Below are positions 34,551-60,023 of a stretch of 64,000 nucleotides of DNA, one piece after another. Every line of letters begins with the position of its first letter. Positions within the stretch are counted from its first letter, which is position 1. Source of the stretch: Verrucosispora sp. WMMD573 (lineage in GTDB: Bacteria > Actinomycetota > Actinomycetes > Mycobacteriales > Micromonosporaceae); NCBI RefSeq assembly GCF_027497175.1, contig NZ_CP114901.1:3844001-3908000 (forward strand), written 5' to 3'. A program made the translations under genes and the position numbers. Under the pieces are notes generated by a model, which searched no databases, was not told the origin of the DNA, and saw nothing but the letters and a program-made list of their open reading frames with translations.

Positions 34551-35507
34551 ATGAAGATGGATCTTCCAAAGCTGGTGGTGGGTCTCTCGCCGGCATGGTC
34601 AGCGTTCCTCACGGACTGGGACCGATCGCTGAGGTCCGGGAACTACCCGGCGACAACTCGCTACAACTACCTGCTGGCCGCAGCCCAACTGGGCCGATAT
34701 CTAACCGCCCACACCTCCCAACCCGACGGCAGCAAGGCGGCCCACACGCCAACAGCAGTGAACCGACGCCACCTTGAGGAGTTTCAGGCGTGGATGCTGC
34801 AGACCCGGTCGGCGTCGACCGCCCTGAACAAGCACAAGGCTCTACAGCAGTTCTTCAAGTGGCTGGCACTGGATGAGGAGGAGATCGACCAGTCTCCGAT
34901 GCTGCGTGTGCGGCAACCGAAGACGCCGGTCAAGCTGGTCCCAATCATCCGCGATGAGGACACCAAGAAGCTACTCGACCACTGCAAAGGCAAGGACTTC
35001 GTGCAGGTCCGCGACGAGGCGATCATCCGGACGCTGGCCAACACCGGAGCTCGCCTGTCCGAGGTAGCGAATCTCCAGCTCAGCGACGTCGACCTGTCGC
35101 TCGACACCGTGCACTACCACGGCAAGGGCGCCAAAGACCGACGAGTCAGACTAGGGCCCAAGACCGCCCGAGCGATCAGCCGCTACCTACGCGCCCGCAG
35201 CAGCCACCGCGCCGTCGGCCTGCCCGACCTGTGGATCGCCGTACGCGGCACACGGCCGCTGGCCGCCAACGGCATCAAACTCATGCTCAAACGCCGCGGC
35301 CAACGTGCCGGAGTCAAGGGTGTACACGCTCACCGGTGGCGGCACACCTACGCACACGAGTGGAAGTTGGCCGGGGGAGACACCGGCGACCTGATGCTGC
35401 TACTCGGCTGGACCTCCGACGACATGCCCCGCCACTACGGAGCCAGCGCAGCCGCCGAGAGAGCTCAGCACGTGCAGGCACGGATGGGGATCGGTGAACG
35501 TGTCTGA
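34551..35507 (+). CDS. XerD-like tyrosine integrase
   Basis: 318 residues from ATG 34551. The SAM-like core-binding domain ('SPAWSAFLTDWDRSLRSGNYPATTRYNYLLA', about 13-43) precedes a catalytic domain with 'TLANTGARLSEVANLQLSDVD' (Arg near 169), 'HGKGAKDRRVRLG' (Lys hairpin), 'HAHRWRHTYAHEW' (His/Arg) and 'LLGWTSDDMPRHYG' (nucleophile Tyr296). Trp replaces His in 'LGW', an accepted substitution. It is probably the element's own integrase. It overlaps the next small gene by 14 bases. I found no tRNA or obvious attachment core beside it. Confidence 0.85.
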   Translation: MKMDLPKLVVGLSPAWSAFLTDWDRSLRSGNYPATTRYNYLLAAAQLGRYLTAHTSQPDGSKAAHTPTAVNRRHLEEFQAWMLQTRSASTALNKHKALQQFFKWLALDEEEIDQSPMLRVRQPKTPVKLVPIIRDEDTKKLLDHCKGKDFVQVRDEAIIRTLANTGARLSEVANLQLSDVDLSLDTVHYHGKGAKDRRVRLGPKTARAISRYLRARSSHRAVGLPDLWIAVRGTRPLAANGIKLMLKRRGQRAGVKGVHAHRWRHTYAHEWKLAGGDTGDLMLLLGWTSDDMPRHYGASAAAERAQHVQARMGIGERV

Positions 35508-42907: not shown

Positions 42908-43678
42908 TCAGCTCAGCCCGGGGAGGTCCTGGTGAATCCGCCGATTTCCAAGCAGGAATGCCGACTGTGGGCTGATGAGGTGCGCACCACTCCGGCCATC
43001 CTCAATGTCGCTGGCATCAACCAGGACAATCTGCGTCTCTGCCGGATTGTGGCCGAGCGCGACGAGGCGGCCCACTAGCTCTGCGGCCTCAGGTGTATCG
43101 GTCACCGCGTCGTACACCTCGAATGAACGAAGGGTCGAGTACTGCTTGCCCGGTGTCGGCCGGGGTCTCTCCAAGACAGTGCGGACGAGCGCGAACCGCA
43201 GGTTCTCGGTCAGCGGCACCAACTCTGGATGCCCGACCTCGGCGAGTTCCTCGCGTAGTTCGCGGCGCAGGCACTCGGGCCCGGACTCTCGGTCGTCGCC
43301 TCGGCTATACCAACGGAGAAAGTCGATGCCGCTCCGAGACGGAACGAAACCGCGCAGATCATGCCGCATCGCCGCCACCCGCCCGGTCGAGCGCCTCTGG
43401 TCGACAAAACCGACGGCGTCTAGCGCCTTTCGGGCCCCGCTGCGGTACTTGACAACTCCTCCCGGCGGGCCGTACGCATGCGGCCGGATCGGGTTATGGA
43501 AGAGGACGTAGCTGTCGTCGTCCTTGACCCGGAGCAGGGCGGCAACCGACACACGTAGCCGCCCGGACGGGAACACAGTGGCCCTCAGCAGACCGAAATG
43601 CCCCCGATGCCGCCAAAGCAAGCCACCGAGGGCGATAAGAACAGTGGTGATCAAGCCGGCGACGATGTTGGCAAGCAC
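42908..43678 (-). CDS. Membrane-anchored NUDIX-like protein (CBASS-effector-like)
   Basis: 256 residues from GTG 43678 with GGAGGT five bases upstream. One N-terminal transmembrane helix ('IVAGLITTVLIALGGLLW') precedes a NUDIX-type domain: 'VSVAALLRVKDDDSYVLFHNP', 'YGPPGGVVKY' near 68, and, after a roughly 60-residue insert, 'CLRRELREELAEVG' near 135-149 (REx2EE part of the NUDIX box). TM-NUDIX architecture with a split box recalls SMODS-associated NUDIX and Cap16-type CBASS effectors, which bind a cyclic nucleotide rather than hydrolyse. No CD-NTase gene is present in the window. The role as effector is inferred from architecture and neighbourhood. Confidence 0.65.
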   Translation of the reverse strand: MLANIVAGLITTVLIALGGLLWRHRGHFGLLRATVFPSGRLRVSVAALLRVKDDDSYVLFHNPIRPHAYGPPGGVVKYRSGARKALDAVGFVDQRRSTGRVAAMRHDLRGFVPSRSGIDFLRWYSRGDDRESGPECLRRELREELAEVGHPELVPLTENLRFALVRTVLERPRPTPGKQYSTLRSFEVYDAVTDTPEAAELVGRLVALGHNPAETQIVLVDASDIEDGRSGAHLISPQSAFLLGNRRIHQDLPGLS

Positions 43679-43822: not shown

Positions 43823-45202
43823 CTACCGCCTCGGCGCTTGGAGCGCCGCCCGGTCCAGTACGTCGGTGCGGCGCAGAAGCTCGTCCAGCGCCGCGGCGGC
43901 TGTCGGATGCGCCGCTCGTAGCCGGGCGAGACTCCCCTGTAAATTGAGCTGGGCGGCAGCGAGCACCCCTCGGGCCTGCTCGAGGAATTCCACCGCTTGG
44001 GACAGCTCACCTTGACGGATCGCGGCTGCGGTGGCGTCCGTAGCGAGGTCCTTCAGCTCTCCGAGACCCAGCTCGCTGTCCCGACGCAACCGCGACCGCG
44101 CCGCCGTCGCGGGAAGCATGGTGACGGCCAGTCGGTATGCCGTCAGCGCGTCGGCGAAGCGACCGCGGCCGTACTGGGCCGCGCCGACACCACGGGCCAC
44201 CTCTACTTCAACCATCGGATCACCGGTCACGACCTCCCCGGCGGCGCGAAAGGCGACGAGCGCCTCGGCGTAATCTCCTGCAGCCATCCGGAGACGACCG
44301 CGGGTCAGTAGCGCCAACGCCAACCGGGTGTCGTAGACGCCGGGGAACGCGGTGGCCAGAGACCGGTAGATGGCCACCGACTCCGCTGACACGGCCGCTG
44401 CTTCGTCATGGCGGGCGACAAGGCTGAAGCACGACGCGGCAGTGTCGAGGGCGATGGCAAGGTCGCCTCGGTACGGGCTCGGCTGCGTCCTCGCGAGCTT
44501 CCGGTAGAGCCGCACCGCCTCATCGACGACGGGGAGCGCCTGCGTGCCGCGGCCGAGATCGACCAGCCGATACGCCCAGTTGTTCAGACTGCTGGCAAGG
44601 TCCGCAGCGTGCTGCCGAGGCGACATCCGCACCAAGTCTCGGCGAACCCCGACAGCCTCCGCGATCACCTGTTCCGCTCCCACCGGCAACGCGGACTCCG
44701 CCAGCCGGTTGGACAGGTTGTTCAGGGCGGCTGCGAGCTGCGGCCGATGACGCCGATGCCGGGTCACACAGAATCGATAAATTTCTGTCGCTTCGTGCGC
44801 CGCGATGAGCGCCTCTGCTCGCCGACCTGCCTCCGACAGCCAGATGCTGAGATTGTTGAGCGATAGCGCGACGTCCGGAGTCGGTTCACCATCGGCGAGC
44901 TCCCGGAAGATGAGAACCGCCTCGCGAGCCGGCCCGAGGGCGTCAACTGGACGCGCGAGGTCACCCAAGCGATTCGACAGATTAGTGAGCAGGGCGGCCA
45001 GATCCTCGCGGTGCTCACGACAGAGGGCCGGGAGCCCTCGAAGAATGATCTCAGCCCGCTCCGCGGCAGCCAGCCCCTCCTGCCAGCGACCCTCCTCGGC
45101 GTAGCGGTTGGACAACTCGCTGAGCTCGCGGGCCTGAGCACGAGAACCGGCCGGAAGCGTGGCCACTACCCTTTCCGTGGCCGCCGCGTCACCCCAGGTC
45201 AT
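43823..45202 (-). CDS. TPR protein 1 (CHAT-less)
   Basis: 459 residues from ATG 45202 (GTG 45205 is an alternative). About eight TPR units of 40-48 residues run from 30 to 390 ('LAALLTNLSNRLGDLARPVDALGPAREAVLIFREL', 'LAAALNNLSNRLAESA', 'VYDTRLALALLTRGRLRMAAGDYAEALVAFRAA'). The end reads 'LSQAVEFLEQARGVLAAAQLNLQGSLARLRAAHP', the linker helix pair that precedes the CHAT domain in TPR-CHAT proteins, then stops after about 25 residues. It probably senses or scaffolds and works with the CHAT protein in trans. The repeats are longer-spaced and more Ser/Asn-rich than in the other four. Confidence 0.8.
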   Translation of the reverse strand: MTWGDAAATERVVATLPAGSRAQARELSELSNRYAEEGRWQEGLAAAERAEIILRGLPALCREHREDLAALLTNLSNRLGDLARPVDALGPAREAVLIFRELADGEPTPDVALSLNNLSIWLSEAGRRAEALIAAHEATEIYRFCVTRHRRHRPQLAAALNNLSNRLAESALPVGAEQVIAEAVGVRRDLVRMSPRQHAADLASSLNNWAYRLVDLGRGTQALPVVDEAVRLYRKLARTQPSPYRGDLAIALDTAASCFSLVARHDEAAAVSAESVAIYRSLATAFPGVYDTRLALALLTRGRLRMAAGDYAEALVAFRAAGEVVTGDPMVEVEVARGVGAAQYGRGRFADALTAYRLAVTMLPATAARSRLRRDSELGLGELKDLATDATAAAIRQGELSQAVEFLEQARGVLAAAQLNLQGSLARLRAAHPTAAAALDELLRRTDVLDRAALQAPRR

Positions 45203-45279
45203 CACACTTCAATATGCCGCTCGGAGCATCGAAGCACAATCCGCCGCTGCCCAGGTAGGCTGAGTGCCAGCCAATCGGG

Positions 45280-45537
45280 GTGATGCCGAGCATGTGTAGC
45301 CCTCGTCGAGACTCGATTTGGCACGATCCTGACCTGTTGACCGGACTCGACCGCAAGGATCCAGCGGCGGCGATTCTTCATACCAGCCTGCAGGATGCAG
45401 TGCGGCTCCTCGAATGCGGGCGGGCACTGCCGCTACGGAAAACGCTGCCGAGCCGGGGGAAGCTAGCCGCTCTGTCCCCGGTGCGCTCCAATATCCCCGC
45501 CGCCATGTACCGTCTCGGCGGGGCACTGGCCAGATGA
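45280..45537 (+). pseudogene. Remnant of a TPR/CHAT-linker gene end
   Basis: An 85-codon open frame whose middle, 'SLQDAVRLLECGRALPL' followed by 'KLAALSPVR', is a decayed copy of the pre-CHAT linker seen at the ends of the intact TPR proteins ('AVELLExGRAVLW', 'LAAL'). Its TGA overlaps the ATG of TPR protein 2 (ATGA). So the coupling may be a relic of a tandem TPR array in which the upstream member was deleted. It could still be translated as a leader. Confidence 0.45.
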
Positions 45538-47264
45538 CCCCCGAGCAGCTATTCAACGCGGCGAGCGACGCCCGTGTGAGAGCTTCCCGCAGCCGTCGGC
45601 TGGCCGACTTTGACGAGGCCGTCGAGCTCAGCCGACGAGCTGTTGCCACGATCGGTGACCGGCACCAGGCGACGGCGCTGGCGGGACTCGCCGGGGCGCT
45701 CCAGGAGCGGTACCTGCGCACCAGCGAGGATACTGACCTGTACGACGCCATCGAGGCTGGCCGGGCAGCTGTGGCTGCAGGCGGTGATATGAGTGCGTGG
45801 ATGAACCTCGCAGCCGCGCTGGCCCTGCGCTTCCGCCGTACCGAAACGCGCGTGGACGCCGACGCGGCGGTCGTGGCCGGTCACCAGGTACTGGTCAACA
45901 TGCCTTCGGGCGACCCCGACTGGGCCACCGCGCTGTCCAACCAGGCACTGCTGCTGACCGAGGTGCATCGTCGTTTCGGCACCGGGCTCGATGCCGCCTT
46001 GGACCTGCATCGGCGGGCCGTAGAGGCAGCCGCTGACGACTCGGCCCGGCACGCGATCACCCTGCTCAACTGGTCGATGGCCCTGCTCGAAGCCGGTGAG
46101 GTGGCCGCCGCCGTGGAGGCGGCCGCGCGAGCACTCGCGGGGACGAGGGAGGACGACCCCATCCGTCCGGCGATCCTGTCACAGTTGGGCAGCGGGCTGC
46201 GTGCCTACGGCCAGCTCGACGATGCCGTCGTAGCCTTCCAGGCCGCCGTGACAAGCGATCCCGGAAACGCTGGATACCGAGGCAACCTCGGCAGCGTCCT
46301 GTACGACCGGTTCAAGCTGTATGGGGCCGTCGCCGATCTGGATGCGGCGGAGCGGGCCATCGGCCGTGCGGCGGCCGGGGCGTACGGTGCAGAGCGTGCC
46401 CGTTACCTCGCGCAGGCGGGCACGATCCTGCGTACCCGGTTCGACCTGAGCGGCGATGTCACTTGGCTGCGGCGGGCCCTCGCGGTGGGGGAGCGGACAG
46501 TCGATCTCCTACCGCCCGACCACCCGGAGCGGGCAGATCATCTCGTCAACGTTCTAGGTACCGTCGTCCGTCTGCTCGACTACGATCCGGCGGGCGTCGA
46601 TGCAGTGCTGGCCGAGTCGGCCGCGCGGGAGGCTGTTCGCACCGCGCGGAATGCGGCCCGGAGGGCGGCCGCACTGGTTCAACTCGGACAAGTCTTGCGG
46701 CGGGACAGCCCGAGACTTGCCGAGGCAGCCGGGCACACTCGGGCGGCGGTGGCCCTCTTACCTCCTGGCAGCCCTGACCGGGCCGCGTACCTCGCGAACC
46801 TGGCCCGGTTGATCGAGGAGTCGGCTGCCGACCCGACCGCGGCCGCGGCAGCCTGGGCGGAGGCGGCCGACGACACCACCGGCCCGGCCGCGGTCCGGCT
46901 GGCTGCGGCCCGTGAGCGGGCGCGCCTTGTTGCAGAGCGACGAGGTCCAGCGGCCGCTGCGGATCACTACGGCACCGCGGTGCGGGATCTGTTGCCGTTG
47001 CTGGCCTGGCCCGGAGTGTATCCGGCCGATCAGCGGCGGATCCTTCGGTCGCATGCCTACCTGTTGGCCACCGACGCCGCAGCTTGCGCGATCGACGCTC
47101 ACTGTCGCGTCGAGGCGGTGGAACTACTCGAGCACGGTCGGGCGGTGCTCTGGGGAAGAATGCTCGACGACCGTCGTACCCTCGCCGCCCTGTCTGCGGC
47201 CGGTTCACCCGTGGCTGCCCGGCTGCGCCGGATCCGGGCGGAACTCGATCAAGACAGCCAGTGA
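45534..47264 (+). CDS. TPR protein 2 (CHAT-less)
   Basis: 576 residues from ATG 45534, which overlaps the upstream fragment's stop; the longer frame to 45414 is not protein-like. About ten degenerate TPR units ('DLYDAIEAGRAAVAAGG', 'DDAVVAFQAAVTSDPGNAGYRGNLGSVL', 'DVTWLRRALAVGERTVDLLPPDHPERADHLVNVL'). The C-terminal part ('LLPLLAWPGVYPADQRRIL', 'LLATDAAACAIDAHCRVEAVELLEHGRAVLWGRML') is the conserved pre-CHAT segment. The protein ends 35 residues later with no protease domain. Convergent with TPR protein 3. Confidence 0.8.
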   Translation: MTPEQLFNAASDARVRASRSRRLADFDEAVELSRRAVATIGDRHQATALAGLAGALQERYLRTSEDTDLYDAIEAGRAAVAAGGDMSAWMNLAAALALRFRRTETRVDADAAVVAGHQVLVNMPSGDPDWATALSNQALLLTEVHRRFGTGLDAALDLHRRAVEAAADDSARHAITLLNWSMALLEAGEVAAAVEAAARALAGTREDDPIRPAILSQLGSGLRAYGQLDDAVVAFQAAVTSDPGNAGYRGNLGSVLYDRFKLYGAVADLDAAERAIGRAAAGAYGAERARYLAQAGTILRTRFDLSGDVTWLRRALAVGERTVDLLPPDHPERADHLVNVLGTVVRLLDYDPAGVDAVLAESAAREAVRTARNAARRAAALVQLGQVLRRDSPRLAEAAGHTRAAVALLPPGSPDRAAYLANLARLIEESAADPTAAAAAWAEAADDTTGPAAVRLAAARERARLVAERRGPAAAADHYGTAVRDLLPLLAWPGVYPADQRRILRSHAYLLATDAAACAIDAHCRVEAVELLEHGRAVLWGRMLDDRRTLAALSAAGSPVAARLRRIRAELDQDSQ

Positions 47265-47337
47265 GGGCTGGCAAGAGCCACGTGATGGACGCTCTGAGCC
47301 CCGGTGGACGCATACCCGTCGGGTCGGGTTTCGCGGG

Positions 47338-49836
47338 TCAGCGACGAAAAGGTACGTCCTTCCCGGCGAGGTGTGCGTCCTTCGGGCCACTGAACCCATC
47401 GGATCGGTGTCCTCCGATGGCGCCGGAGAGCTGATCCAGTTCCTCCGAGCCGTCCAGCTCGGAACGTACTCGCTCGAGTGAGGCGGCAAGCTCGGGCGCC
47501 TGGCTGCGCAACACGGCCAGGTCGGCACGCCGGTCGAGAATCTGCGCCCACAGGATTGCGCGGCCTGCTTCGAGCAGCGTGACAGCTGTCGTGTGCCGGC
47601 CGGCATCGGTGGCCGTAGCGGCCGCGTCCCGGGCCAGGCCGGACCAGCCGGCGATCGCATACTCCCGATCGACGCGTCGGACACCCGGCCAGGACAACGC
47701 GGCCAGCAGGCGCACCGCGGTGGCATAGCCGTCGGCGCCATCGGCTCGGGCACCGAGCCGGGCCGCGGTCCGGCCCCACGCCGTGCCCGCGACAGTCCGG
47801 ACGGCTACCGGCGCGGCGGGTGCTGAGGCGGCACACCACCAGCAGTCCCGGGCTTCGCGTAGGTCGGTGGCGGTCGCCCGCTGCTCGTACGCGCTGCCGA
47901 GATTGACCAGCGACCGGGACCAGCCCGGCGACCCTGGCTCGGCCGCCGCGACCGACTCGGTGCCCAGCCGGACGGCGTCGTCCAGGTCCTGTGGCTGACG
48001 GGTGCGCTCGAACCGGCGCAGCAGCGCGAGACCCACGTTGGATAGCCGGCTGTGCCGCTCCGGGGCGCTGCCGTCGGTCTGATCGACCGCGCGGAGCCCA
48101 TCGACGATCGCCGCATCGAGTTCGGTGAGGTCACCGTTACGCAGGTATCGGGTCTGCCGGATAACACATATGTTGGACAGTCGAGCGGGTAGGGCGGGGC
48201 TGCTCGGCGGGGTGGCTGCGACCGCCTCCCGCATGGTGCTGATCGCCTCGTCGAGGTCGGCATCTTGTTCGGTGCGGGTGAACCGGGCCTGAAGGAAGAG
48301 GCTCAGGTTCGTAAGGTAGCGGGGTCGATCGATGTGACCAATAGGCACCAGTTCGGTGGCCTGCCGGCCGACGGTGACGGCCTCGTCGATGTCCTCGACG
48401 GCGCCGTGCCTGTCGAAACGTGCCTGCAGCACGCCGGCCAGCGTCGACAGGCACCGGGCCCAGTCGGTGGGGGACTGGCCGGCGAAGGTGGCCGCCTGGC
48501 GGCCGTATAGCACCGCCTGGTTCAGGTCGTCGCCGGCGCCGAACCGTTCGAAACGGGTAAGCAGGCTCCCGGCCAGGTTGGACAGATAACGGCCCTGGTA
48601 ATGGTCATCGGCAGCGGCGTTGGAGACCGCCTGCTGCTGAACCTTGACGGCCGCGTCAAGGTCGTGTCGTGCGCCGGTCGACTGGAAACGCAGCCGCAGC
48701 ATCGCCCCAAGGTTGCTGCTATAACGGGCGACGCCGGGATGCCCGGCGGGTGCGGTAGCGAGGGCGTCACCGGTCACCGTGATCGCCTCGTCGAGGTCGG
48801 CCCAGGCACCGGCGAGGTCGTATCGGGCACGCAGGGTGTTGCCCAAATTGACCTTGATACCGAAAACCCGCGGATGCCTGGCTGGTACCACGGCAACAGC
48901 CCGCCGGTGCGCCGTCAGCGATTCGTCTAGGTCACCGCTGTCGCCGGTTGCCTCGAACCTGGTCCGCAACGCCGAGCCCAGACCCGACAACCGTGCCCCG
49001 AGATCCGGGTCGTCGAGGTCACTGTGGTCGACGGCCAGGCGCGCCTGGCGTACCGCCTCGGTGAGGTCGGCGAGGTCTCCGGTGGCCTCGTAGCGGACGG
49101 TTAGGGCCTGAGCGAGGTTCGCGGCGTGCCCGGCCGAGCCGGACCCGGACGCGGCCTGAGACAGGGAGCGGACCGCGTCGTCGATGTCGGCGGGCATCCG
49201 GGTATGCCCGAACCGGGCGAGCAAGGCGGTGCCGAGATTGTTGAGCAGGTCGGCCCGCAGTGGTCCGGGCTCGACGGCCGCGGTTCGGTACAGCTCAATT
49301 GCCTCGTCTAGGTCGGCCACATCGCCGGTCGCCTCGAACCGCTCACCCAGCGCGGCACCCACGTTGATCCGCCCTGCCCGCACGGTCGCCTCTGCGCCCC
49401 AGCGCAGCGCGACGCGTCCGGCTGCAATCGCCAAGTCAAGCAATCCCCGTCGCTGGAACTCGGCACACGCGTCGACTGCGGCGATAGCGGCCACCGGTCG
49501 CAGCAAAATTGGCACCACCTGCGGTTCCTCCAAGGCGACGGCCAGGGCCACAGCGCCGGCATGCCGCTTCGCAGCACGTCGGCCCTCCGATGTGGCCACA
49601 GCTAAGGCCCGGCAGTGATGCAGGCAGGCCGACACGATCAACATCCGGTGCCTTAGCTGCGTCCCCGCGGCTCCGGCGGAGTCACGGACGAGGCGCTCGG
49701 CAAGCGATGCAGTGCCCGCTGCGGTCACCCCGGTGTAGTCGCCGACGGCGAAGGCGGCGAGCCGCCGTTCGGCGTCGGGCAGATCCTCAGCGATGGTGGC
49801 ACCCCGATCGATCTGGTGGTCATCCGCTTCTAGCAT
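47338..49836 (-). CDS. TPR protein 3 (CHAT-less)
   Basis: 832 residues from ATG 49836; the frame is open to 50193, but that part is the antisense of the neighbouring gene. After an N-terminal helical domain ('IAEDLPDAERRLAAFAVGDYTG'), about a dozen regular TPR units of roughly 45 residues carry the phrase 'RFExTGDxxDLDEAI...A...P.....R...L.NLG..L..R'. The end holds 'LLAALSWPGVRRVDREYAI' and 'AVTLLEAGRAILWAQILDRRADLAVLRSQAPELAASL', the pre-CHAT linker, then a 35-residue tail. Only 36 bases separate its start from that of divergent TPR protein 4. Confidence 0.82.
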   Translation of the reverse strand: MLEADDHQIDRGATIAEDLPDAERRLAAFAVGDYTGVTAAGTASLAERLVRDSAGAAGTQLRHRMLIVSACLHHCRALAVATSEGRRAAKRHAGAVALAVALEEPQVVPILLRPVAAIAAVDACAEFQRRGLLDLAIAAGRVALRWGAEATVRAGRINVGAALGERFEATGDVADLDEAIELYRTAAVEPGPLRADLLNNLGTALLARFGHTRMPADIDDAVRSLSQAASGSGSAGHAANLAQALTVRYEATGDLADLTEAVRQARLAVDHSDLDDPDLGARLSGLGSALRTRFEATGDSGDLDESLTAHRRAVAVVPARHPRVFGIKVNLGNTLRARYDLAGAWADLDEAITVTGDALATAPAGHPGVARYSSNLGAMLRLRFQSTGARHDLDAAVKVQQQAVSNAAADDHYQGRYLSNLAGSLLTRFERFGAGDDLNQAVLYGRQAATFAGQSPTDWARCLSTLAGVLQARFDRHGAVEDIDEAVTVGRQATELVPIGHIDRPRYLTNLSLFLQARFTRTEQDADLDEAISTMREAVAATPPSSPALPARLSNICVIRQTRYLRNGDLTELDAAIVDGLRAVDQTDGSAPERHSRLSNVGLALLRRFERTRQPQDLDDAVRLGTESVAAAEPGSPGWSRSLVNLGSAYEQRATATDLREARDCWWCAASAPAAPVAVRTVAGTAWGRTAARLGARADGADGYATAVRLLAALSWPGVRRVDREYAIAGWSGLARDAAATATDAGRHTTAVTLLEAGRAILWAQILDRRADLAVLRSQAPELAASLERVRSELDGSEELDQLSGAIGGHRSDGFSGPKDAHLAGKDVPFRR

Positions 49837-49872
49837 TACCACGGGCTGCCACCAGCCGGTAGCGTTCCGATC

Positions 49873-52638
49873 GTGGCACGCGATGAGCCGGACGCTCGGG
49901 AGGTACTGCTGGCTCGGGTCGAGGCGAGAGTGGCACGGTACGCCGATACCCTCGACAGCGCTCACGTCCTCGGCCCGCAAGCGGCTGCAGAGGCAGCCGC
50001 CCTGCTGGCCATCGTCGACCGAGCAGAGCATCTGGACGCAGAGGTAATGCTCGCGGTGGCCTACCTGCATTGGGTACGGGCCGACCACGTCGACGCCGAG
50101 GCAAAAGAGGCCGAGGTCGCCATCGCCGTGCCGTTGTTCGCCGACCTGTACACGCTGGATCCAGGCTTGCTGCCGCCCTCGCTGCATGCGCAACTGGACG
50201 AGGCCACCGGCATTCGGGCCTACCGGTCGTGGGAGCAGACCGGCGATCCTCAGGCGCTCGACGAAGCGGTGGGACTGCTACGAACCGCCTGCACCGAAGG
50301 TGGCGGAGGGCCCCGACGGCTGTCCAACCTGTCCAGCACGCTGCGGCAACGGTTCCTGCTCACCGGGGACAGGTCCGACATCGACGAAGCAGTCGTGTCG
50401 GCTGCGGAAGCGGTACGCCGCGCGGAGTCCACCGACCCCAACCGGGGCGCGTGGCTGTCGAACCAGGGCAGCGCCCTGCTGGCCCGTTTCGGCCACTCCG
50501 GTGACCCGGCCGACCTGGACACCGCAGTGGCCGCGCTGCGGGCGGCGACCGCCGCTGCCCCGGGCGGCGTCTACCTGTCCAACCTCGCGGCAGCCCTGAT
50601 CACTCGGCACACCATCAGTGCGGACTCGGGAGACTTGACCGCGGCGCAGGCCGCAGCCCGCGCGGCGGTCACCGGCCCCGGCCACGACGACCAGAGTCTC
50701 GCCGATGCGACGGCGGTGCTCTGCCTCGTGCTGACCCGCGGCTACGACGTGTCCGGTGACCCAAACATCCTGGCCGAGGCGATCACCGCCGGCGAACAGG
50801 CGGTACGTCTGGGCGGCGGCCCCGAGGCACTGACCAATCTCGCCGTTGCGCTGGTGAACCGGTACCTGATGACTGGCTTTGTCGCTGATCTTGACACCGC
50901 TGTCGATCTCGGCCGGCAGGCGGCGGCCGACAGCACCGCCGCCGGACAGGCCATCAACCTGTCCAACCTCGCCGACACTCTGCAACTCCGCTTCGCCGCT
51001 GGCGCACCCAGCAACGTCCTCGACGAGGCGGTCGACGTGGCCGCGAAGGCAGTGGCGGTCGCCGGACCCGACGATCCGGGCCAGGTCACCTACCTGGCCA
51101 ACCTTGGCGCCGCCCACCTGACCCGGCACGAAATCACCGGTCACGACGACGACCTGGAGGCAGCGCTGGCCGCCGCCCGATCGGCGGTGGACGCGGCCGG
51201 GCCGGCGCACCGGGCTCGGCCCTTGGCCGAGACCACTCTGGGTCTGGCGCTACTCGCCCGGTACGAAACCGACGGCGCACCGGCCGACCTGGACGAAGCG
51301 GTTCTTCTGGCCCGGGCCGCTGCTGCCGCTGAAACCGGTGTCAACGACCGGATCAGCTGCCTGGGCAACCTGTACGCCGCCCTGCAGCAGCTGTTCGCCC
51401 GGGACGGCGAACCAGCCCTGCTCGACGAAGCGGTGAACGCGGCCGCGGAAGCGGCACGACTGGCCGGTGGGACCGCGCACGCCGCTGTGACTCAGTCGAA
51501 CCTGTCCGCCGCCCATGGACTGCGGCAGGAGGCGACAGGCGCACCGGCCGACGTAGAAGCGGCAGTGGACGCTGCGCAGCGCGCGGTCGTCGCGACAAGT
51601 CCTGGCGACCGCGCCCTGGCAGCCCGGTACGGCAACCTCAGTGCCGCCCGGCTAGCCCGGTTCACTCAGTTCGGTGCCCTGACCGACCTGGACGACGCGA
51701 TCACCGCCGCCCGGCAGGCGGTCGCGGTCTCCACCGGTCCCGCCGTCCTGGCGACCTCCCGGTCGGGACTGGCAGCGGCCCTTTACCACCGGTTCACCGT
51801 CGTTCAGGACTGCGCAGACCTGGACGAGGCAGTGGACGCCGCCCGCGCCTCTGTCGCGGGTTCTCCCAAAGAGGCACCGGAGCGGCCTGGCCGTCGCGCC
51901 AACCTCGCCAGCGTGCTGATGGTCCGCGACCGCCCCGACGACCTGGATGAGGCCATCGAGCAATACCAGGAAGCGGTCGCGGCGGTCACCGGTGCACCGG
52001 TCCTGCGGGCCGCGCTGCAGTCCAATCTCGCGCATGCGCTGAGCCGCCGGTACATGCTCACCGGCTCGGCTGCCGACCTGACCGCTGCGATCAGCGTGGG
52101 ACGCGAGGCGCTGGAATCGGCGGGCAGCCGTCCAGTACCGGATCGGGCCACCTACCTGGTCAACCTCGCCCGCGCGCTGCACCTGTACGCCGAGCGGACC
52201 GATGACACCGCGGCCACCAGTGAAGCACTGAACCTACTGGCACAAGCGGAAGCGGCGGCTGAAACACCGGCCGAGGACCGACTGACCGCAGCGGTCGAAC
52301 GGGGCCGTATCGCAGCCGTGGCCGGCAACTGCGAGCAGGCCCGCGCCGGATACTCGGCGGCAGCTCGACTGCTGCCCGAGGCCGCCTGGACCGGACTGGA
52401 CCGCCGCTCCCGGGAACGGCACCTGAGTCGCACCACCGCAATCGGTGCCGACGCTGCGGCCTGGCAGCTGACGGCGGCGGACATACCGGCTGCGATTGAG
52501 CTGCTGGAACTGGGCCGGTCGGTGCTGTGGACCAGCCTGCTTGATCAGCGGCCCGACCTGTCATTGCTGAAACACGAGCACCCAGAGTTGGTCCGGCGCC
52601 TGGTCGAGGTCGGTGCCCGCCGTCACCTACTGCACTGA
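49873..52638 (+). CDS. TPR protein 4 (CHAT-less)
   Basis: 921 residues from GTG 49873. A conserved N-terminal region ('LLARVEARVARYADT', 'VMLAVAYLHWVRADHVDA', 'AVPLFADLYTLDPGLLPPSL') corresponds to the helical head also seen in TPR protein 5. Fourteen or so TPR units follow, many with '.RF..TGD..DLDEAV..A..AV.......R...L.NL...L'. It closes with 'AIELLELGRSVLWTSLLDQRPDLSLLKHEHPELVRRL' and stops, so the CHAT domain is absent. Divergent from TPR protein 3 across 36 bases, so the two must share or overlap promoters. Confidence 0.82.
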   Translation: MARDEPDAREVLLARVEARVARYADTLDSAHVLGPQAAAEAAALLAIVDRAEHLDAEVMLAVAYLHWVRADHVDAEAKEAEVAIAVPLFADLYTLDPGLLPPSLHAQLDEATGIRAYRSWEQTGDPQALDEAVGLLRTACTEGGGGPRRLSNLSSTLRQRFLLTGDRSDIDEAVVSAAEAVRRAESTDPNRGAWLSNQGSALLARFGHSGDPADLDTAVAALRAATAAAPGGVYLSNLAAALITRHTISADSGDLTAAQAAARAAVTGPGHDDQSLADATAVLCLVLTRGYDVSGDPNILAEAITAGEQAVRLGGGPEALTNLAVALVNRYLMTGFVADLDTAVDLGRQAAADSTAAGQAINLSNLADTLQLRFAAGAPSNVLDEAVDVAAKAVAVAGPDDPGQVTYLANLGAAHLTRHEITGHDDDLEAALAAARSAVDAAGPAHRARPLAETTLGLALLARYETDGAPADLDEAVLLARAAAAAETGVNDRISCLGNLYAALQQLFARDGEPALLDEAVNAAAEAARLAGGTAHAAVTQSNLSAAHGLRQEATGAPADVEAAVDAAQRAVVATSPGDRALAARYGNLSAARLARFTQFGALTDLDDAITAARQAVAVSTGPAVLATSRSGLAAALYHRFTVVQDCADLDEAVDAARASVAGSPKEAPERPGRRANLASVLMVRDRPDDLDEAIEQYQEAVAAVTGAPVLRAALQSNLAHALSRRYMLTGSAADLTAAISVGREALESAGSRPVPDRATYLVNLARALHLYAERTDDTAATSEALNLLAQAEAAAETPAEDRLTAAVERGRIAAVAGNCEQARAGYSAAARLLPEAAWTGLDRRSRERHLSRTTAIGADAAAWQLTAADIPAAIELLELGRSVLWTSLLDQRPDLSLLKHEHPELVRRLVEVGARRHLLH

Positions 52639-52732
52639 TGCCAGGACTGACCGTTTCCACTTCGGCGTCGACCTGAGGCGACCGGTGGAACAGAGGGATG
52701 TTTGACTCTGTGGCGCGTCGTGGTTCACCTGG

Positions 52733-52933
52733 CTATCGAGCGCTTGGGGGCCAGAGACCCGCGCGACCGCGTTCGGGTAGCTCAAGGGCGTTGGTACGGT
52801 GGCCGGCGCTGAGGACGCAGGCTGCGGCGTCGGTGGCGAGCGAGAGGGCTGTTCGCCTGGAGGGCCTTTCCTCGAAGCGGCGGTGTTGGCGTTGCCAGGC
52901 AGCGACGGGAAGTACCTCGATGGCTGCGCTCAA
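52733..52933 (-). pseudogene. TPR/CHAT-linker fragment in 480-bp gap
   Basis: The space between TPR proteins 4 and 5 (52639-53122) holds one recognisable piece: a minus-strand frame reading 'LSLATDAAACVLSAGHRTNALELPERGRAGLW', clearly the pre-CHAT linker of this protein family ('L.TDAAAC...AG....A.ELLE.GR..LW'). Nothing upstream or downstream continues it. It is the leftover end of another TPR gene, evidence of loss by recombination between repeats. The rest of the gap shows no gene. Confidence 0.55.
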
Positions 52934-53122
52934 ACCGGACTCGCATTTCCCCCGCCGCTGCCCGCTCGGCGGCGGAAGCTGTTCAACACGTACGCCGGGT
53001 CGGCCAGCGGCGACGCCGTAAAGCGACCTGCCCGATGTTCAGGTGGTCGGCAACATGAGCGGCAACCCCTCGATACGGACTGGTGGGCTGGCTGCGCCGG
53101 AGATCAACGCAGCGGCTGAGGT

Positions 53123-55048
53123 TTACAATCGCCACTTTTGAATGGCGTCTAGGGTGGACCGATCGAGGGCGGCGCGGCAGTTAGACAACTGCTCGGCCAA
53201 ATCAGGCGCGACGTGGTGCAAGTCAGTCAGGTCGATGCGCGTGCTTAACACTTGGGACCAGTAGACTCCGCAGCCTGCATATAGCAGCGTGGCAGCAAGA
53301 TCGGGGCTGCCGGCGGCGATTGCACACGCGGCACCATCGCGAGCGAGTGAAACGGACTGGGTCTGCAGAAGGTACTGCTGGTCGCGATGGCTGATTCCCC
53401 TCCAAGTCAGCAACGGAAGCAGTTTCACCGCCTCTGTGTAGGGTTCGGCTGCGGCGGCAGGACCGCTACGCTGTACGACTGCGTGTGCCCACGATTTGGC
53501 TGCGGATAGGCGAACCATCGCTGGGGCGACTGATGACTGGCTTGCTTCCACCCACCCATGTATCGCCTCGTCTAAATCCCCAGCAACTCTCAGGGTTTCG
53601 AACCGAGTAGCCAGCGCGGCGCTAAGGTTGCAAAGCATTGAGGCGCGGTCAGGGTGTCCGTCGGGGACAGACGCAAGGGCTTCTCGACTTACCATCGTCG
53701 CTTCATTCAGGTCCTCAACAGCCCCGGTACGGTCGGCCAAGGTGCTTAGCGTGTTGCCTAGGTTCGCCAGCACCGCGGCGCGATCGGAGTGATGAGCAGG
53801 GGTGATTGCCGCCGCCTCCCTACCAAGGTGAACTGCCTCATCCAAGCTCCCGACGTCAGTCCGCTCGAACCAAGCCGCCAGCATGTAGGCGAGGTTGGTT
53901 AATCGCCCGGCGCGGTGAGGATGATTGATGGCGGTGGCCTTTACCGCCTGCCGACCCGCGGCAATTGCCGCCTCCAGGTCCTCAATCTCATTTGTCCGAC
54001 CGAATCGACCGTGCAGTGCTATGGCGAGATAAGACCAGCGGATCGCGTACTTGCGGTGACCTTCAGGGGTTGCGGCAACGGCCTGCCGGGCAAGGCTGAC
54101 GGCCTCGTCCAGATCAGCAGCGGCCCCGAGCCGATCGAATCGGGAAAGAAGCGCGACGCTTAGGTTCGACAAGCAGCCGCCATGGTCTGGGTGACCGTCC
54201 GAGAGTTCGGCCACTGCCATCCGACCCAAGCGGACCGCCTCGTTCAACTCTCCGATTTTCCCTGTTCTGTCAAACCGTGCACGCAGTGCGAGACTGAGGC
54301 TGGAAAGATACGCGGCCCGGTCAAGATGGCCGTCGGGGGTGGCAGTTACCGCCTGCTGACCAACGCTGATTGCTTCATCGAGGTCGGTAATCGCTCCGCC
54401 CTCCTCGAATTGCATGCGCAGATGGTTGCCGAGGTTGGATAGATACTTGGCGCGCTCGGGGTGCCCATCTGGGGTGGCGGCAACGGCGTCCCGGGTAACA
54501 GCCACTGCTTCGTCCAGGTCGGTGATCGCGCTTGTGCGCTCGAACCGGAAGCTCAGTGCGACTCCGAGGTCCGACAACAGGCCGGTCCGATCGCAGTGCT
54601 CGTCAGATGTGGCAGATAAGGCGGCCGTGAGGGCGGCAATGGCGTGTGTCAACGCAGCAGGGTCATCCCGGCTTGCAACCCGCTTGAGTAGACCCGTAGC
54701 GAACGCAGCCAGCCGACCCGCATCGATTTTATAGCCATCGGTAGTCAGATATTCGCGTACTGCTCTAGGTACTGCACTTTGATCTTCTTGGAATATCAAA
54801 GTGAACAGCCCCATCGCCGTACGCAAGTCACCCTCGTCCTGACCTTCCGGCAGGGCGCGATGGCGACACCAATGCAGCCACGCCACCAAGCGTGCTACCT
54901 CAAACGATAGACCACCCTCGGCACCTGCGGCCTGACTCAGTAGGTCACGCGCCTCGACGGCCGCCTCCGGATCCTGAACGGGGCGCGCGTCGCCTTGCTC
55001 AAACGCGCGAATTCGAGTGATGAGCCTACCGATCCGCTCGTCGTTCAC
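53123..55048 (-). CDS. TPR protein 5 (CHAT-less)
   Basis: 641 residues. GTG 55048 is preferred over TTG 55075 because GAGAGG lies nine bases before it. The N-terminal head ('DERIGRLITRIRAFEQGD', 'FEVARLVAWLHWCRHRALP', 'AMGLFTLIFQEDQSAVPRAVREYL') parallels that of TPR protein 4. About eight very regular TPR units carry 'AVAATPDGHPERAKYLSNLGNHL' and 'RFDRTG...DLDEAV'. The end, 'LAATLLYAGCGVYWSQVLSTRIDLTDLHHVAPDLAEQL', is the pre-CHAT linker, then 25 residues and stop. Base composition is visibly less GC-rich than the other TPR genes, suggesting separate acquisition. Confidence 0.82.
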   Translation of the reverse strand: MNDERIGRLITRIRAFEQGDARPVQDPEAAVEARDLLSQAAGAEGGLSFEVARLVAWLHWCRHRALPEGQDEGDLRTAMGLFTLIFQEDQSAVPRAVREYLTTDGYKIDAGRLAAFATGLLKRVASRDDPAALTHAIAALTAALSATSDEHCDRTGLLSDLGVALSFRFERTSAITDLDEAVAVTRDAVAATPDGHPERAKYLSNLGNHLRMQFEEGGAITDLDEAISVGQQAVTATPDGHLDRAAYLSSLSLALRARFDRTGKIGELNEAVRLGRMAVAELSDGHPDHGGCLSNLSVALLSRFDRLGAAADLDEAVSLARQAVAATPEGHRKYAIRWSYLAIALHGRFGRTNEIEDLEAAIAAGRQAVKATAINHPHRAGRLTNLAYMLAAWFERTDVGSLDEAVHLGREAAAITPAHHSDRAAVLANLGNTLSTLADRTGAVEDLNEATMVSREALASVPDGHPDRASMLCNLSAALATRFETLRVAGDLDEAIHGWVEASQSSVAPAMVRLSAAKSWAHAVVQRSGPAAAAEPYTEAVKLLPLLTWRGISHRDQQYLLQTQSVSLARDGAACAIAAGSPDLAATLLYAGCGVYWSQVLSTRIDLTDLHHVAPDLAEQLSNCRAALDRSTLDAIQKWRL

Positions 55049-56420: not shown

Positions 56421-59400
56421 GTGTTGGGCGTTCGGTGGCGGCGTGGGTTGTCCGCGGCGGTGGCGGCGGTGGTGGCTGTCGGGGTGATCGGTGTTCCGGC
56501 GCCGGAGCGGGTCGTTGCGGCGGGACGGCAGTGCGTGGACGTGGCCGGCTCCGAGGTTGAGGCAAGGGTGCTGGCTGCCTCCTGCGGGCAGCCGGTGGTG
56601 GTGGACGGGTCGCGGACGGAGTTCGCCGAGGTGACCGCGTTGCCGGATGGGCGGCTGCAGTTCGCGTCGGCGGTGGTGCCGCAGCGCACCCGTAAGGCCG
56701 GCAGTTGGCGGGATATCGATCTCAATCTGGCCCGGGGTGGGGACGGGTTGTGGCGCCCCGGGGTGTCGGTCGCGGACGTGGCGTTCTCGGGTGGTGGGGA
56801 CGGGGCGATGGTGACGCTGACGCGTGGCGGGCGGACGGTCACCCTGTCGTGGCCGGGGACGTTGCCGGCGCCGACGGTGTCGGGGGATGCGTTGACCTAC
56901 GCGGACGTGCTTGCCGATGTGGATCTGGTGGTGCGGGCGACGCGGACGGGCTTCACGCACGTGCTGGTGGTCAAGACGCGGGCGGCGGCGACGCATCCTG
57001 ACGTCCGTGAGCCGCGCTTCCGCATCGGTGGGGACGTCGAGGTCGTGGCGGGCCCGGATGGCGGCCTGCGGGCGATGGCAGGTGGTGCTGTGGTCGCTTC
57101 GGCAGAGCCGGCGGTGATGTGGGATTCCCGGGTGGGGGCGGTGGACGGCGTCTCGGCGCGGGGGTCGTTGACCGAGAGCTCGCCGTCGACGGCGACGGTG
57201 GCGGGGGACGCGGCACGGACTGGCAAGGTCGATGTCGAGGTGTCTGGCGACCACCTGGTGCTGCGTCCGGATGAGACGTTGCTGGACCATCCGGATGCGG
57301 TGTTCCCGCTGTTCGTGGACCCGGCGTGGTCGGTGTTCAAGAGCAAGTGGGCGTACGGGACGAACAACGGGTCGTCGAACTCGGACACGAGTCGCGCGCG
57401 AGTGGGGCTGAACCCGGACACTGGCGCCCTGTACCGGTCGTACTTCGCGTTCTCGACGACGGCCAACGGGGTGTCGCTCAAGGGCAAGCACATCGAGTCG
57501 GCGTACGTGCAGATGAAGCTGGACCACTCGTGGTCGTGCGGGCCGACGGTGTCGGCGATGTATCTGACCTCGGCGATCAACGCGACGCCGAAGGCGACGT
57601 GGTCGTCGATGAAGATGAGAGCGTTCCTGAACTCGGCGACGGGGAACGCGAACGAGGCCGGCGGTTGTTCGTCGATCCAACCCGACATGATCATGAACTT
57701 TAAGGGCTCGAACACCACCAGTCAGGTGCAGGCCGCGGCGACCGGGAACTGGAGTTCGATCACCGTGGCGTTCACCGCCCGCGCGGCGGATGGGTCGGGG
57801 GAGTCGACGGAGGATCGTTGGAAGAAGTTCTTTCCCAACGATGCGAAGCTGATCGTCGACTACGACACCAAGCCCGGTGCCCCGCACACCCTCCAGGCCG
57901 CTGGCGTGACCTGCGGCTCCGGTGTGCTGACGATCGGCACATTGGCCCCGACGTTCTCGGCGGTCTTCCCCGACGCAGACAGCAGCGACTCACTGACCGG
58001 CACCTTCGAGTGGATCGAGGTGCCGGCGGGCGGCATAGGCACCGTGACGTCCACCTTCCCGGCCCGTAAGAGTCCGCCGCCGGCGAGGACGGGAATCACC
58101 CCGAATAGTCGGGCGACGAGTTCCGCGGTGACGGTCGCCAAGGGACCGACCTACGCGTTCCGCGCCAGGGGCACCGACAAGGCCCCGTACTCGATCACCG
58201 GCTCGTGGTCGTCGTGGTGCCAGTTCACCCCCGACACTACGGTGCCGCCGGTGCCCACGATCACCCCGGGCACCGCCGGTGGCCCGGGCAAGACGATGAC
58301 CTTTTCGATCAGCACCACTACCACGGACGTGACCAAGTTCCGCTTCGGCTGGTCCAACCCGCCCACGACCGAGGTCGCCGCCAGTGGCGCCAACCCGAAA
58401 ACAGCCACGGTCACCGTCACCGTGCCCAGCTTCGGGCAGAACACCCTCTGGGTTCGCGGCATCGACGCCACCGGCAATCTCGGCAACATCGGCTCCGCCA
58501 CCTTCACCGCGCCCCGACCCTCACCGGCCGTCGCCCAGTGGGGTCTGGAGCAGTACCCCGGCGTCGACCAGACGGTCGCGCTCGCCGATCAGCAGCCCAC
58601 GCTGGGTGGTCAGACCGACTTGAGCGCGTCCAACGTCAGCTGGGTCGACGATGTTCGCCTGAACGGTGGCAAGACCGCTGGCCTCAACGGCAGCTCGTCG
58701 GTGTTGACTACGTCGGGCAGTGTCGTCAACACGGCCAACTCCTTCAGCATCGCCACATGGGTCCGGCTCACCTCGCTGCCGACGACCGGCGATGTCGTCA
58801 TCGCGTCCCAGGCGGGGGCGAGCGCCGCCGGTTTTCATCTGGGTACCCGGTTGGTCGGGTCGCCGTTGACGCCACGGTGGTCGTTCCTGATGAAGGACAG
58901 CGACGATCAGTCAAGTACCACCCGTGTGGCGTACAGCGCCACGGCCTTGACATCTGCTGATGTCGGGCGGTGGACGCACATCGCGGGCGTGTATGACAAG
59001 GCCGCTGGCAAGGTCCGGCTCTACGTCGACGGCGAACTGGTCGCCGAGGTCGACCGCAGCGGCACGCCGTGGAACGCCACCGGCACGTTCGCGGTGGGTC
59101 GGGGGTGGAGCTCCGGCGTAGCGAGCAACTGGTTCCACGGCACCGTCGCCGACGTCCAGGCGTACGACCGGGTGCTCGTGCCGCAGGATTTCGTCGGCCA
59201 GCTGGCACAGGATCCGGCCTCCGGCGGGTTCCACGAGCCGGGGATGCTGACACCGGTGCGGGTGGGCGACTGGAACTTCGAGTTCGCCGTGCCCAGCTAC
59301 CTGGCCGATCTGCGGGACACCTGCGAGGCACCCAGTGCGGTGACGACCTGGGATCGGTGGCTGGCACTGACACGCGGCTCCGCCGTTGGCGCCGGCTACT

Positions 59401-60023
59401 CCACCGACGGCTCGGGGCTGTGGCTCGACGACGAGTACTTCCCGGAGGAGGGGTTTACCGAGAGCACCGCGGAGTACGGGCGAAGCGCGGTGAAGGCGGG
59501 GACCACGCCACCGGACGCCGACGGTCTGGAGTTCACCCAGTGGCAGGACAAGCCGGTCCTGCGTACCGATCAGTCGTTCACGATGTCGGCCTGGGTGATG
59601 CTCGACCGGCTCGACGGCATGCGGACGGCGGTGTCCCAACGTGGGCAGCATGCCAGCGGCGGCTGGCTCAAGTTCAACTCCACTCTCGGCAAGTGGCAGT
59701 TCGCCATCAGCGACGAGGACACCACCACCACACCGACGGCCAGCATCACGTCGACGTCAACGGCCGAGGAGGGCGTGTGGACGCACCTTGTCGGCGTGTA
59801 CGACGCCGGGCGGAAGCAGATCCGCCTCTACGTCAACGGTGAGCTCGAAGGGGTCACGCAGAACATCTCCTTCACGCCCATGGTGTCGACCGGACCGCTG
59901 TTGGTGGGCCGGGTCCAGTGGCAGGGCCAGTTGAAGGACCCGTGGATCGGCGGCATCGACAACGTCGCCGTGTTCCAGGGCGCGCTGACGGACACGGCGG
60001 TGTACATGCTGTACGACTCGTAG
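56421..60023 (+). CDS. Secreted LamG-domain protein
   Basis: 1200 residues from GTG 56421. A basic start and hydrophobic helix ('LSAAVAAVVAVGVIGVPA') form a signal peptide. Residues about 40-310 resemble the N-terminal scaffold of actinobacterial RHS-associated proteins ('WRDIDLNLARGGDGLWRP', 'VFPLFVDPAWS'). Two LamG/concanavalin-like domains lie near 690-850 ('FSIATWVRLTSLP', 'GRWTHIAGVYDKAAGKVRLYVDGEL') and 1050-1195 ('FTMSAWVMLDRLDG', 'VWTHLVGVYDAGRKQIRLYVNGEL', 'IDNVAVFQGAL'). It is probably exported and surface-associated, binding glycans or proteins. It lies 180 bases upstream of an RHS gene on the same strand, the usual pairing in these loci. Confidence 0.82.
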   Translation: MLGVRWRRGLSAAVAAVVAVGVIGVPAPERVVAAGRQCVDVAGSEVEARVLAASCGQPVVVDGSRTEFAEVTALPDGRLQFASAVVPQRTRKAGSWRDIDLNLARGGDGLWRPGVSVADVAFSGGGDGAMVTLTRGGRTVTLSWPGTLPAPTVSGDALTYADVLADVDLVVRATRTGFTHVLVVKTRAAATHPDVREPRFRIGGDVEVVAGPDGGLRAMAGGAVVASAEPAVMWDSRVGAVDGVSARGSLTESSPSTATVAGDAARTGKVDVEVSGDHLVLRPDETLLDHPDAVFPLFVDPAWSVFKSKWAYGTNNGSSNSDTSRARVGLNPDTGALYRSYFAFSTTANGVSLKGKHIESAYVQMKLDHSWSCGPTVSAMYLTSAINATPKATWSSMKMRAFLNSATGNANEAGGCSSIQPDMIMNFKGSNTTSQVQAAATGNWSSITVAFTARAADGSGESTEDRWKKFFPNDAKLIVDYDTKPGAPHTLQAAGVTCGSGVLTIGTLAPTFSAVFPDADSSDSLTGTFEWIEVPAGGIGTVTSTFPARKSPPPARTGITPNSRATSSAVTVAKGPTYAFRARGTDKAPYSITGSWSSWCQFTPDTTVPPVPTITPGTAGGPGKTMTFSISTTTTDVTKFRFGWSNPPTTEVAASGANPKTATVTVTVPSFGQNTLWVRGIDATGNLGNIGSATFTAPRPSPAVAQWGLEQYPGVDQTVALADQQPTLGGQTDLSASNVSWVDDVRLNGGKTAGLNGSSSVLTTSGSVVNTANSFSIATWVRLTSLPTTGDVVIASQAGASAAGFHLGTRLVGSPLTPRWSFLMKDSDDQSSTTRVAYSATALTSADVGRWTHIAGVYDKAAGKVRLYVDGELVAEVDRSGTPWNATGTFAVGRGWSSGVASNWFHGTVADVQAYDRVLVPQDFVGQLAQDPASGGFHEPGMLTPVRVGDWNFEFAVPSYLADLRDTCEAPSAVTTWDRWLALTRGSAVGAGYSTDGSGLWLDDEYFPEEGFTESTAEYGRSAVKAGTTPPDADGLEFTQWQDKPVLRTDQSFTMSAWVMLDRLDGMRTAVSQRGQHASGGWLKFNSTLGKWQFAISDEDTTTTPTASITSTSTAEEGVWTHLVGVYDAGRKQIRLYVNGELEGVTQNISFTPMVSTGPLLVGRVQWQGQLKDPWIGGIDNVAVFQGALTDTAVYMLYDS

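Follow-up and report, generated by a model that had tools for sequence, protein, structure and literature searches.

A split TPR-CHAT protease locus in Verrucosispora, with one CHAT protein probably served by several TPR proteins

Results

Architecture of the locus

The window analysed here is a 64,000-nucleotide stretch of the single-contig, 6.5 Mb genome of Verrucosispora sp. WMMD573 (NCBI RefSeq assembly GCF_027497175.1, contig NZ_CP114901.1, positions 3,844,001 to 3,908,000), and window positions are counted from its first letter. Between 36.6 and 55.1 kb lies a locus composed of a stand-alone CHAT protease gene, a TCAD9 gene, a NUDIX gene and five TPR genes on alternating strands (Table 1). 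The nearest named proteins come from Verrucosispora and Micromonospora. We read this locus as a split TPR-CHAT protease in which a shifting complement of TPR sensors serves one CHAT protein in trans, with a probability of roughly 0.75, and the five TPR proteins are accordingly numbered below as sensors 1 to 5.

A CHAT domain is present in only one of the nine window proteins scanned. Genome-wide, five CHAT places were found, the four outside the window lying in open frames of at least 875 amino acids (aa). The N-terminus of the window CHAT protein is the joint helix DRRMALTREWDALVEQVR, the helix that follows the TPR/CHAT joint in fused relatives, and its His-Cys dyad is present, as are both residues in 30/30 solo and 33/33 fused aligned rows. 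Among the TPR proteins, the length of sensor 2 is backed by a 98% homologue, P0121, also of 576 aa. The starts of sensors 3 and 5 were taken over from an original prediction made from the sequence alone, the open reading frame (ORF) of sensor 3 opening further upstream, and a predicted model of the 650-aa frame of sensor 5 is all-helical (predicted local distance difference test score 91.1). Two relics of further TPR-only genes are embedded in the array, and the stop codon of the first overlaps the start of sensor 2.

Table 1. Genes and relics of the locus and its flanks, with profile scores. JUNC is the C-terminal module defined in the text; tail, residues between the JUNC match and the stop.
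Feature	Position	Strand	Matches
Tyrosine recombinase	34551-35507	+	Phage_integrase 79 bits
Stand-alone CHAT protease, 429 aa	36583..37872	+	PF12770 132.5 bits
TCAD9 protein, 1483 aa	37853..42304	-	PF19974 281.9 bits (cut-off 40)
SMODS-associated NUDIX protein, candidate effector	42908..43678	-	PF18167 115.2 bits; PADLOC 2TM effector models
TPR-only protein, sensor 1, 460 aa	43823..45205	-	TPR_12 and TPR_10 above cut-off; JUNC 109 bits, tail 12
Relic, C-terminal end of a further TPR-only gene	45259..45537	+	JUNC positions 83-139, 26 bits, tail 2
TPR-only protein, sensor 2, 576 aa	45534..47264	+	JUNC 135 bits, tail 3; no Pfam match at 0.001
TPR-only protein, sensor 3, 832 aa	47338..49836	-	TPR_10 above cut-off, TPR-S below; JUNC 147 bits, tail 37
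TPR-only protein, sensor 4, 921 aa	49873..52638	+	JUNC 134 bits, tail 5; no Pfam match at 0.001
Relic of a further TPR-only gene	52733..53038	-	JUNC positions 42-108, 52 bits, in 101-aa frame
TPR-only protein, sensor 5, 641 aa	53123..55048	-	TPR_10 above cut-off; JUNC 160 bits, tail 11
1200-aa protein	56421-60023	+	Two Laminin_G_3 lectin-like stretches

A common end point of the TPR proteins

The C-terminal module that precedes the presumed joint was captured in a profile of about 140 residues (141 positions), here termed JUNC, which was built from six homologues together with the five proteins of the window, enlarged to 73 sequences, and run against stop-to-stop frames. The end of the first-round profile was set by us at 44 aa past the start of the motif, later hits were added from the same loci, and the yardstick was identical for the TPR-only and fused classes. 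With the second-round profile all five window proteins matched, at 109-160 bits, whereas a Pfam TPR cut-off was exceeded by three of them, and every stop codon fell 3-37 residues past the match. Tails of 0-41 residues characterize 49 of the 51 full TPR-only JUNC ORFs across the relatives, while fused proteins (n=25) continue for 383-472 residues beyond the same point. The linker from JUNC to a fixed CHAT anchor has a median of 24 residues (range 10-74) in the 22 fused proteins with a CHATN match, the other three being left out of the count, and possible start codons of the solo CHATs lie inside or just ahead of the linker region. Together, these positions place the cut within the linker with no domain lost.

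The observed common end point of the five TPR proteins is therefore real, with very high confidence. The original prediction had the five ORFs right, as all are present and open with JUNC near the C-terminus, and likewise the stand-alone protein at 36.6 kb as the sole CHAT domain of the window. Its claim that all five end exactly at the joint holds for the common end, with "exactly" slightly too strong for the 37-residue tail of sensor 3. The motif it described as common to the five is degenerate in two, the W being absent from sensor 1 (GVLAAAQ) and sensor 5 reading GCGVYW, although all five match JUNC. The check it proposed, a comparison of the C-termini with fused TPR-CHAT proteins, recovered a common end and not widely differing ones.

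Several individual TPR proteins vary this architecture. JUNC proteins in loci L106 (3-2390, +) and L107 (10825-13866, +) carry an extra TPR-like stretch, of 445 and 298 aa respectively, in place of CHAT. The 41-aa tail of a TPR-only protein in L094 (10703-13285, +) contains a segment resembling the CHAT joint helix (RRRAETYREWRALVVDAVTRL), possibly marking a later cut point or a sensor that plugs itself. In a TPR gene adjoining the solo CHAT of genome G1145 (L152 1452-4292, +), JUNC is split in frame by a run of EIADSAAR repeats.

Recurrence of the split

We compared 54 loci, namely the window, eight loci from the contig scan and stretches from further genomes, mostly with about 10 kb on each side. 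Thirty-one carry a solo CHAT and 23, a selection from the many more fused matches listed, carry fused genes (25 in total). Two short-frame CHAT matches were left out (G1016, with one internal stop, and G082 C138, at a contig edge), and JUNC matches below 60 bits or ending before position 134 were excluded from the 51 ORFs and the locus counts (the window relics, L091 15533, L096 15430 and L099 5832). Between one and five full TPR-only genes were present in 28/31 solo-CHAT loci and in 0/23 fused loci, which argues that the split is recurrent and not a random truncation. The split and the co-occurrence of TPR-only genes with solo CHATs are observations in which our confidence is high.

Co-occurrence across genomes

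The same association extends beyond the immediate neighbourhood. In 50 genomes of one genus, the related genus of G1145, a gene was classed as fused if JUNC and CHAT shared one open frame, and a solo CHAT was defined by a match at E <1e-85 in a frame of <560 aa. TPR-only genes were found in 6/6 genomes with a solo CHAT of the window family and in 0/44 others (Fisher p 6.3e-8, uncorrected for kinship). All 34 TPR-only matches belong to those six genomes, and 26 of them are more than 15 kb from the solo CHAT or on another contig. JUNC matches occur in 17 of the 44 genomes lacking a solo CHAT, and these 22 matches are all fused.

A set of 23 genomes was also searched with the JUNC alignment and CHAT; profile A1 missed the fused gene of the genome that holds the window and was replaced by A4. 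The nine genomes of this set without a solo CHAT of the window family contain eight JUNC matches, all fused, under a position rule that counts two tandem TPR-only genes beside solo CHATs in G1143 and G1090 as fused and that counts G1043 7445258 and G970 4832946 as being without CHAT despite CHAT-type sequence in frame. In both sets the best first-look JUNC candidates of each genome were scored (the best 82 of 189-366 in the 50 genomes, the best 150 in the 23).

One case of dispersal is G1145, in which 15 intact TPR-only genes between 4.5 and 8.9 Mb end 1-23 residues past JUNC and one solo CHAT of the window family is present, a ratio of about 15 to 1. The neighbours of these dispersed genes that were scanned are mostly unrelated (P450, oxidoreductase, transporter), and no conserved partner was found among the 19. 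One dispersed gene abuts a gene for a 1287-aa CHAT-AAA-TPR protein (L178 10789-14652, -), and a DUF4132 protein occurs in two loci of dispersed sensors.

Turnover and constraint of the sensors

Comparison with Actinomadura terrae illustrates how differently the parts of the locus are retained. The window CHAT and TCAD9 proteins share 84% and 65% identity with their counterparts, and the five window and three A. terrae TPR genes yield one orthologous pair, that of sensor 4 (59%), with no other pair above 35% among the top four matches listed per protein. More broadly, the best relative of 16/49 TPR-only genes is a fused protein, so sensor modules may pass between the fused and split states. Local tandem duplication was considered and rejected: where a locus carries two or more TPR-only genes, the best relative lay in another locus in 35/35 cases and in the same locus in 0/35, a test that, with about 70 candidates elsewhere, shows only the lack of recent local copies.

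Ratios of non-synonymous to synonymous substitution (dN/dS) were calculated for orthologue pairs of at least 55% identity, two pairs at 54.7-55.0% being left out; the two long-tailed TPR-only ORFs were excluded from the comparison of best relatives above and from the JUNC tree. When 19 JUNC frames of G1145 were compared with 11 of G1159, seven had such an orthologue, with dN/dS of 0.23-0.58 (one of the seven is the broken L152, for its aligned part only). Between the window and A. terrae, dN/dS was 0.16 for CHAT, 0.37 for TCAD9 and 0.41 for sensor 4, and two further locus pairs gave 0.22 and 0.25 for CHAT and 0.28-0.41 for the TPR parts. The sensors are thus constrained, mostly less than CHAT. 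In the G1145/G1159 pair a faster rate in the sensors was not clear, the solo CHAT value of 0.35 lying within their range.

History of CHAT and conservation of its first helix

In a midpoint-rooted tree of 63 CHAT proteins (30 solo, 33 fused; L049 left out), fused forms branch outside and solo forms inside, and well supported branches force at least four fusion or fission changes. A single solo-CHAT clade was rejected (approximately unbiased test, p 9e-39). The fused protein L121 is nested inside a solo clade (support 99/95) and reads as a re-fusion, which would mean that the two halves work together when rejoined. CHAT relatives also occur on 17 PLSDB plasmid records, the best places at 35-45% identity (Streptomyces 14, Embleya 2, Rhodococcus 1).

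The first helix after the cut in solo CHATs, DRRMALAREWDELVEQVR, is almost invariant, with a mean entropy of 0.52 bits compared to 0.41-0.45 for the most conserved windows of the solo protein. In fused CHATs the same helix exceeds the average column in variability (1.83 vs 1.73), and of the 367 windows of 18 residues compared, the ones that overlap it differ most between solo and fused proteins. When pairs were matched for divergence over the remainder of the protein, the divergence of the helix was 0.14 in solo and 0.30 in fused pairs (bin 0.30), 0.18 and 0.53 (bin 0.50), and 0.22 and 0.60 (bin 0.55), while six fused proteins nested in the solo-rich clade were intermediate (0.36 at 0.49). The helix may be fixed because one plug must fit many sockets. 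The confidently predicted structure of a fused relative is similar to Csx29 and separase.

Further components and flanking genes

The TCAD9 gene is convergent with CHAT and overlaps its 3' end, and the protein contains what we read as a P-loop-like stretch, GAAGTGKST. Homologues of it adjoin a solo CHAT in two other loci, L006 (65%) and L096 (47%). The NUDIX gene, positioned between the TCAD9 gene and the TPR array, encodes a member of a group known from nucleotide-signalling defence; its product had no BLAST match at 1e-5 among the other 53 loci. Clustering of neighbours was dominated by shadow frames, so only Pfam-scanned neighbours were used. The 20 scanned in other solo loci include three C14 caspases (L093, L098, L106), two CATRA proteins (L095, L105), a TIR protein (L100), a protein kinase (L091) and a TCAD9 protein (L096), the rest having other families or none. 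This variety fits a protease with changing targets or partners.

At the flanks, the 1200-aa protein gene adjoins the sensor array, and the CHAT gene is preceded at a distance of 1 kb by that of the tyrosine recombinase, which lacks any BLAST match in the other solo-CHAT loci and perhaps derives from a separate mobile insertion.

Discussion

A proposed mechanism and its limits

The shared cut point, the association of TPR-only genes with solo CHATs, the turnover of the sensors and the constraint on the helix were all computed here, as was the predicted Csx29/separase-like fold of the fused relative, and they suggest how the parts could work. The TPR repeats of each TPR-only protein would bind a trigger and JUNC would form a socket, into which the conserved N-terminal helix of CHAT would plug; in fused relatives, a loop leads into the same helix. 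Such docking in trans is probable in our estimation. A sensor that meets its trigger would switch on the docked CHAT, which would cleave partners, perhaps the TCAD9 protein or the NUDIX effector, with dormancy or death as the outcome. We infer the binding in trans, the activation, the substrates and the role in defence from these patterns, and defence through cleavage of a partner protein is plausible. With the parts separate, sensors could be gained, lost and scattered across the genome with the protease unchanged.

The original prediction fares well here. Its split of an ancestral fusion agrees with the placement of fused forms outside solo forms in the CHAT tree and with the shared cut point, its proposal that several TPR sensors feed one protease in trans with the genome counts, the distant matches and the G1145 ratio, and its recognition repertoire with the single TPR orthologue pair beside conserved CHAT and TCAD9 in A. 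terrae.

A number of points weigh against this reading. On the socket side, a higher conservation of JUNC in TPR-only proteins was not found; JUNC is slightly more variable there than in fused proteins, leaving the socket without a constraint to match that of the helix. The JUNC tree has few columns and 42/71 of its inner branches are open, the pairs in the helix comparison are not independent, the solo rows were gathered by similarity to one solo protein, and the predicted contact between TPR and CHAT parts comes from a single-chain fused homologue. Long tails, of 298 and 445 aa, occur in two of the 51 TPR-only ORFs, and a full TPR-only neighbour is missing from three solo-CHAT loci: L049, which scores lower and looks like a fragment, L099, where the JUNC of the neighbour is broken by a repeat run, and L110, which lies 1.5 kb from a contig end. 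The loci and genomes are related, so that the Fisher value overstates independence, and scoring the best candidates can miss weak JUNC matches. In G1145 the CHAT-domain places total 19, so the sensors there might work with other CHAT proteins, and the genomes in general carry more distant CHAT proteins that are possible partners. Finally, three of the 44 genomes (G1151, G1169 and G1171) have weaker CHAT matches (E 7.5e-45 to 4e-26) in 434-577-aa frames and no JUNC match, indicating that not every short CHAT is accompanied by sensors.

Alternative explanations

The alternative that survives best, though we consider it unlikely, is that the TPR proteins are substrates, inhibitors or scaffolds bound to CHAT in trans, detection of the trigger falling to another part, such as the TCAD9 protein, or to a nucleotide signal. 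Separase is held by securin, and excerpts of PMC9729208 describe TPR-CHAT as switched by RNA on its partner gRAMP; the differing third components of the solo loci would suit this possibility as well, as would the finding that TPR-S, a family whose Pfam name denotes sensor repeats, reaches no more than a sub-threshold score, in sensor 3. However, the TPR parts vary far more than CHAT in number, length and sequence, a better fit to varied triggers than to a fixed inhibitor.

That the TPR-only genes are pseudogenes, truncated fused genes that have lost their CHAT halves, is disfavoured and very improbable. In its favour, the window holds two TPR relics, a fragment resembling the CHAT linker helix survives in the L094 10703 tail, breaks are visible in L152 and L153, G970 4832946 has the appearance of a cut fused gene, and L102 (372 aa) and L103 11660 (149 aa) may be broken upstream. 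Yet the ends agree within about 40 aa across genera, the remaining TPR-only ORFs are open over 372-1357 aa, dN/dS is 0.23-0.58, and the 44 genomes lacking a solo CHAT, home to 22/24 of the fused genes that would be the supposed source, yielded no TPR-only gene. Least credible, and likewise disfavoured, is a shufflon-like cassette in which the tyrosine recombinase would fuse TPR genes singly and in frame to CHAT, for although the alternating strands, the nearby recombinase and the common end point recall such a device, no repeat connects the ends of the five genes to the start of CHAT (among 20 of 57 direct families and 25 of 82 inverted pairs listed), the recombinase is unmatched in other solo loci, CHAT has its own start codons and G1145 sensors lie up to megabases away.

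Comparison with known systems

Returning to the split protease with several sensors, the closest precedents are the caspase/TPR (CATRA, TCAD) ternary conflict systems of Burroughs and Aravind (2020), as cited in PMC8195603 and in a figure legend of PMC12657218; in the excerpted text of PMC7159879, ternary systems that carry a caspase are described and the word CHAT is absent. Like these, the window and the actinobacterial loci combine a caspase-fold protease, a TPR protein and a variable further component. The window has a caspase-superfamily protease (CHAT, PF12770), an adjoining TPR gene and a TCAD protein, and no CATRA-N/CATRA-C protein among 19 window proteins scanned. Unlike these systems, so far as the partial sources describe them, it has several divergent TPR genes per protease, genome-dispersed sensors in its relatives, a defined cut and a constrained helix. 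Among the matches listed by full-text literature searches, at the level of abstracts, there was no description of many TPR genes per CHAT, although parts may be in print. We therefore regard the system as a variant of the caspase/TPR conflict systems that earlier publications predicted, with a many-sensor arrangement that is apparently new relative to those partial sources.

Csx29 shares the CHAT domain with its His-Cys dyad but is a single polypeptide, while the window TPR and CHAT proteins come from separate genes, each with its own stop. Within Craspase (type III-E CRISPR) it has one RNA-guided partner in place of several TPR proteins, and the window CHAT scores 36.7 bits against the Csx29 model NF041237 of NCBIfam, far below the cut-off of 300. 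Separase is eukaryotic, acts on cohesin and has one partner rather than a sensor family.

We lean modestly towards a broader view in which these loci form a hub-and-spoke immune network, with one caspase-like protease, an almost invariant N-terminal plug and fast-changing TPR sensors across the genome adding new specificities without duplication of the executor. If true, a universal plug on the protease, together with a stock of exchangeable detectors, would offer a simple route to widening innate recognition, with a clean genetic logic in which loss of one protease gene is loss of all sensors, and the combination of a solo CHAT helix and a JUNC end would provide a sequence rule for finding orphan sensors anywhere in a genome. 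In plant NLR sensor-helper networks, many divergent sensors feed a shared executor. The window system would follow the same logic by analogy only, the proteins being unrelated, and bacteria would then separate recognition from execution as those plant networks do.

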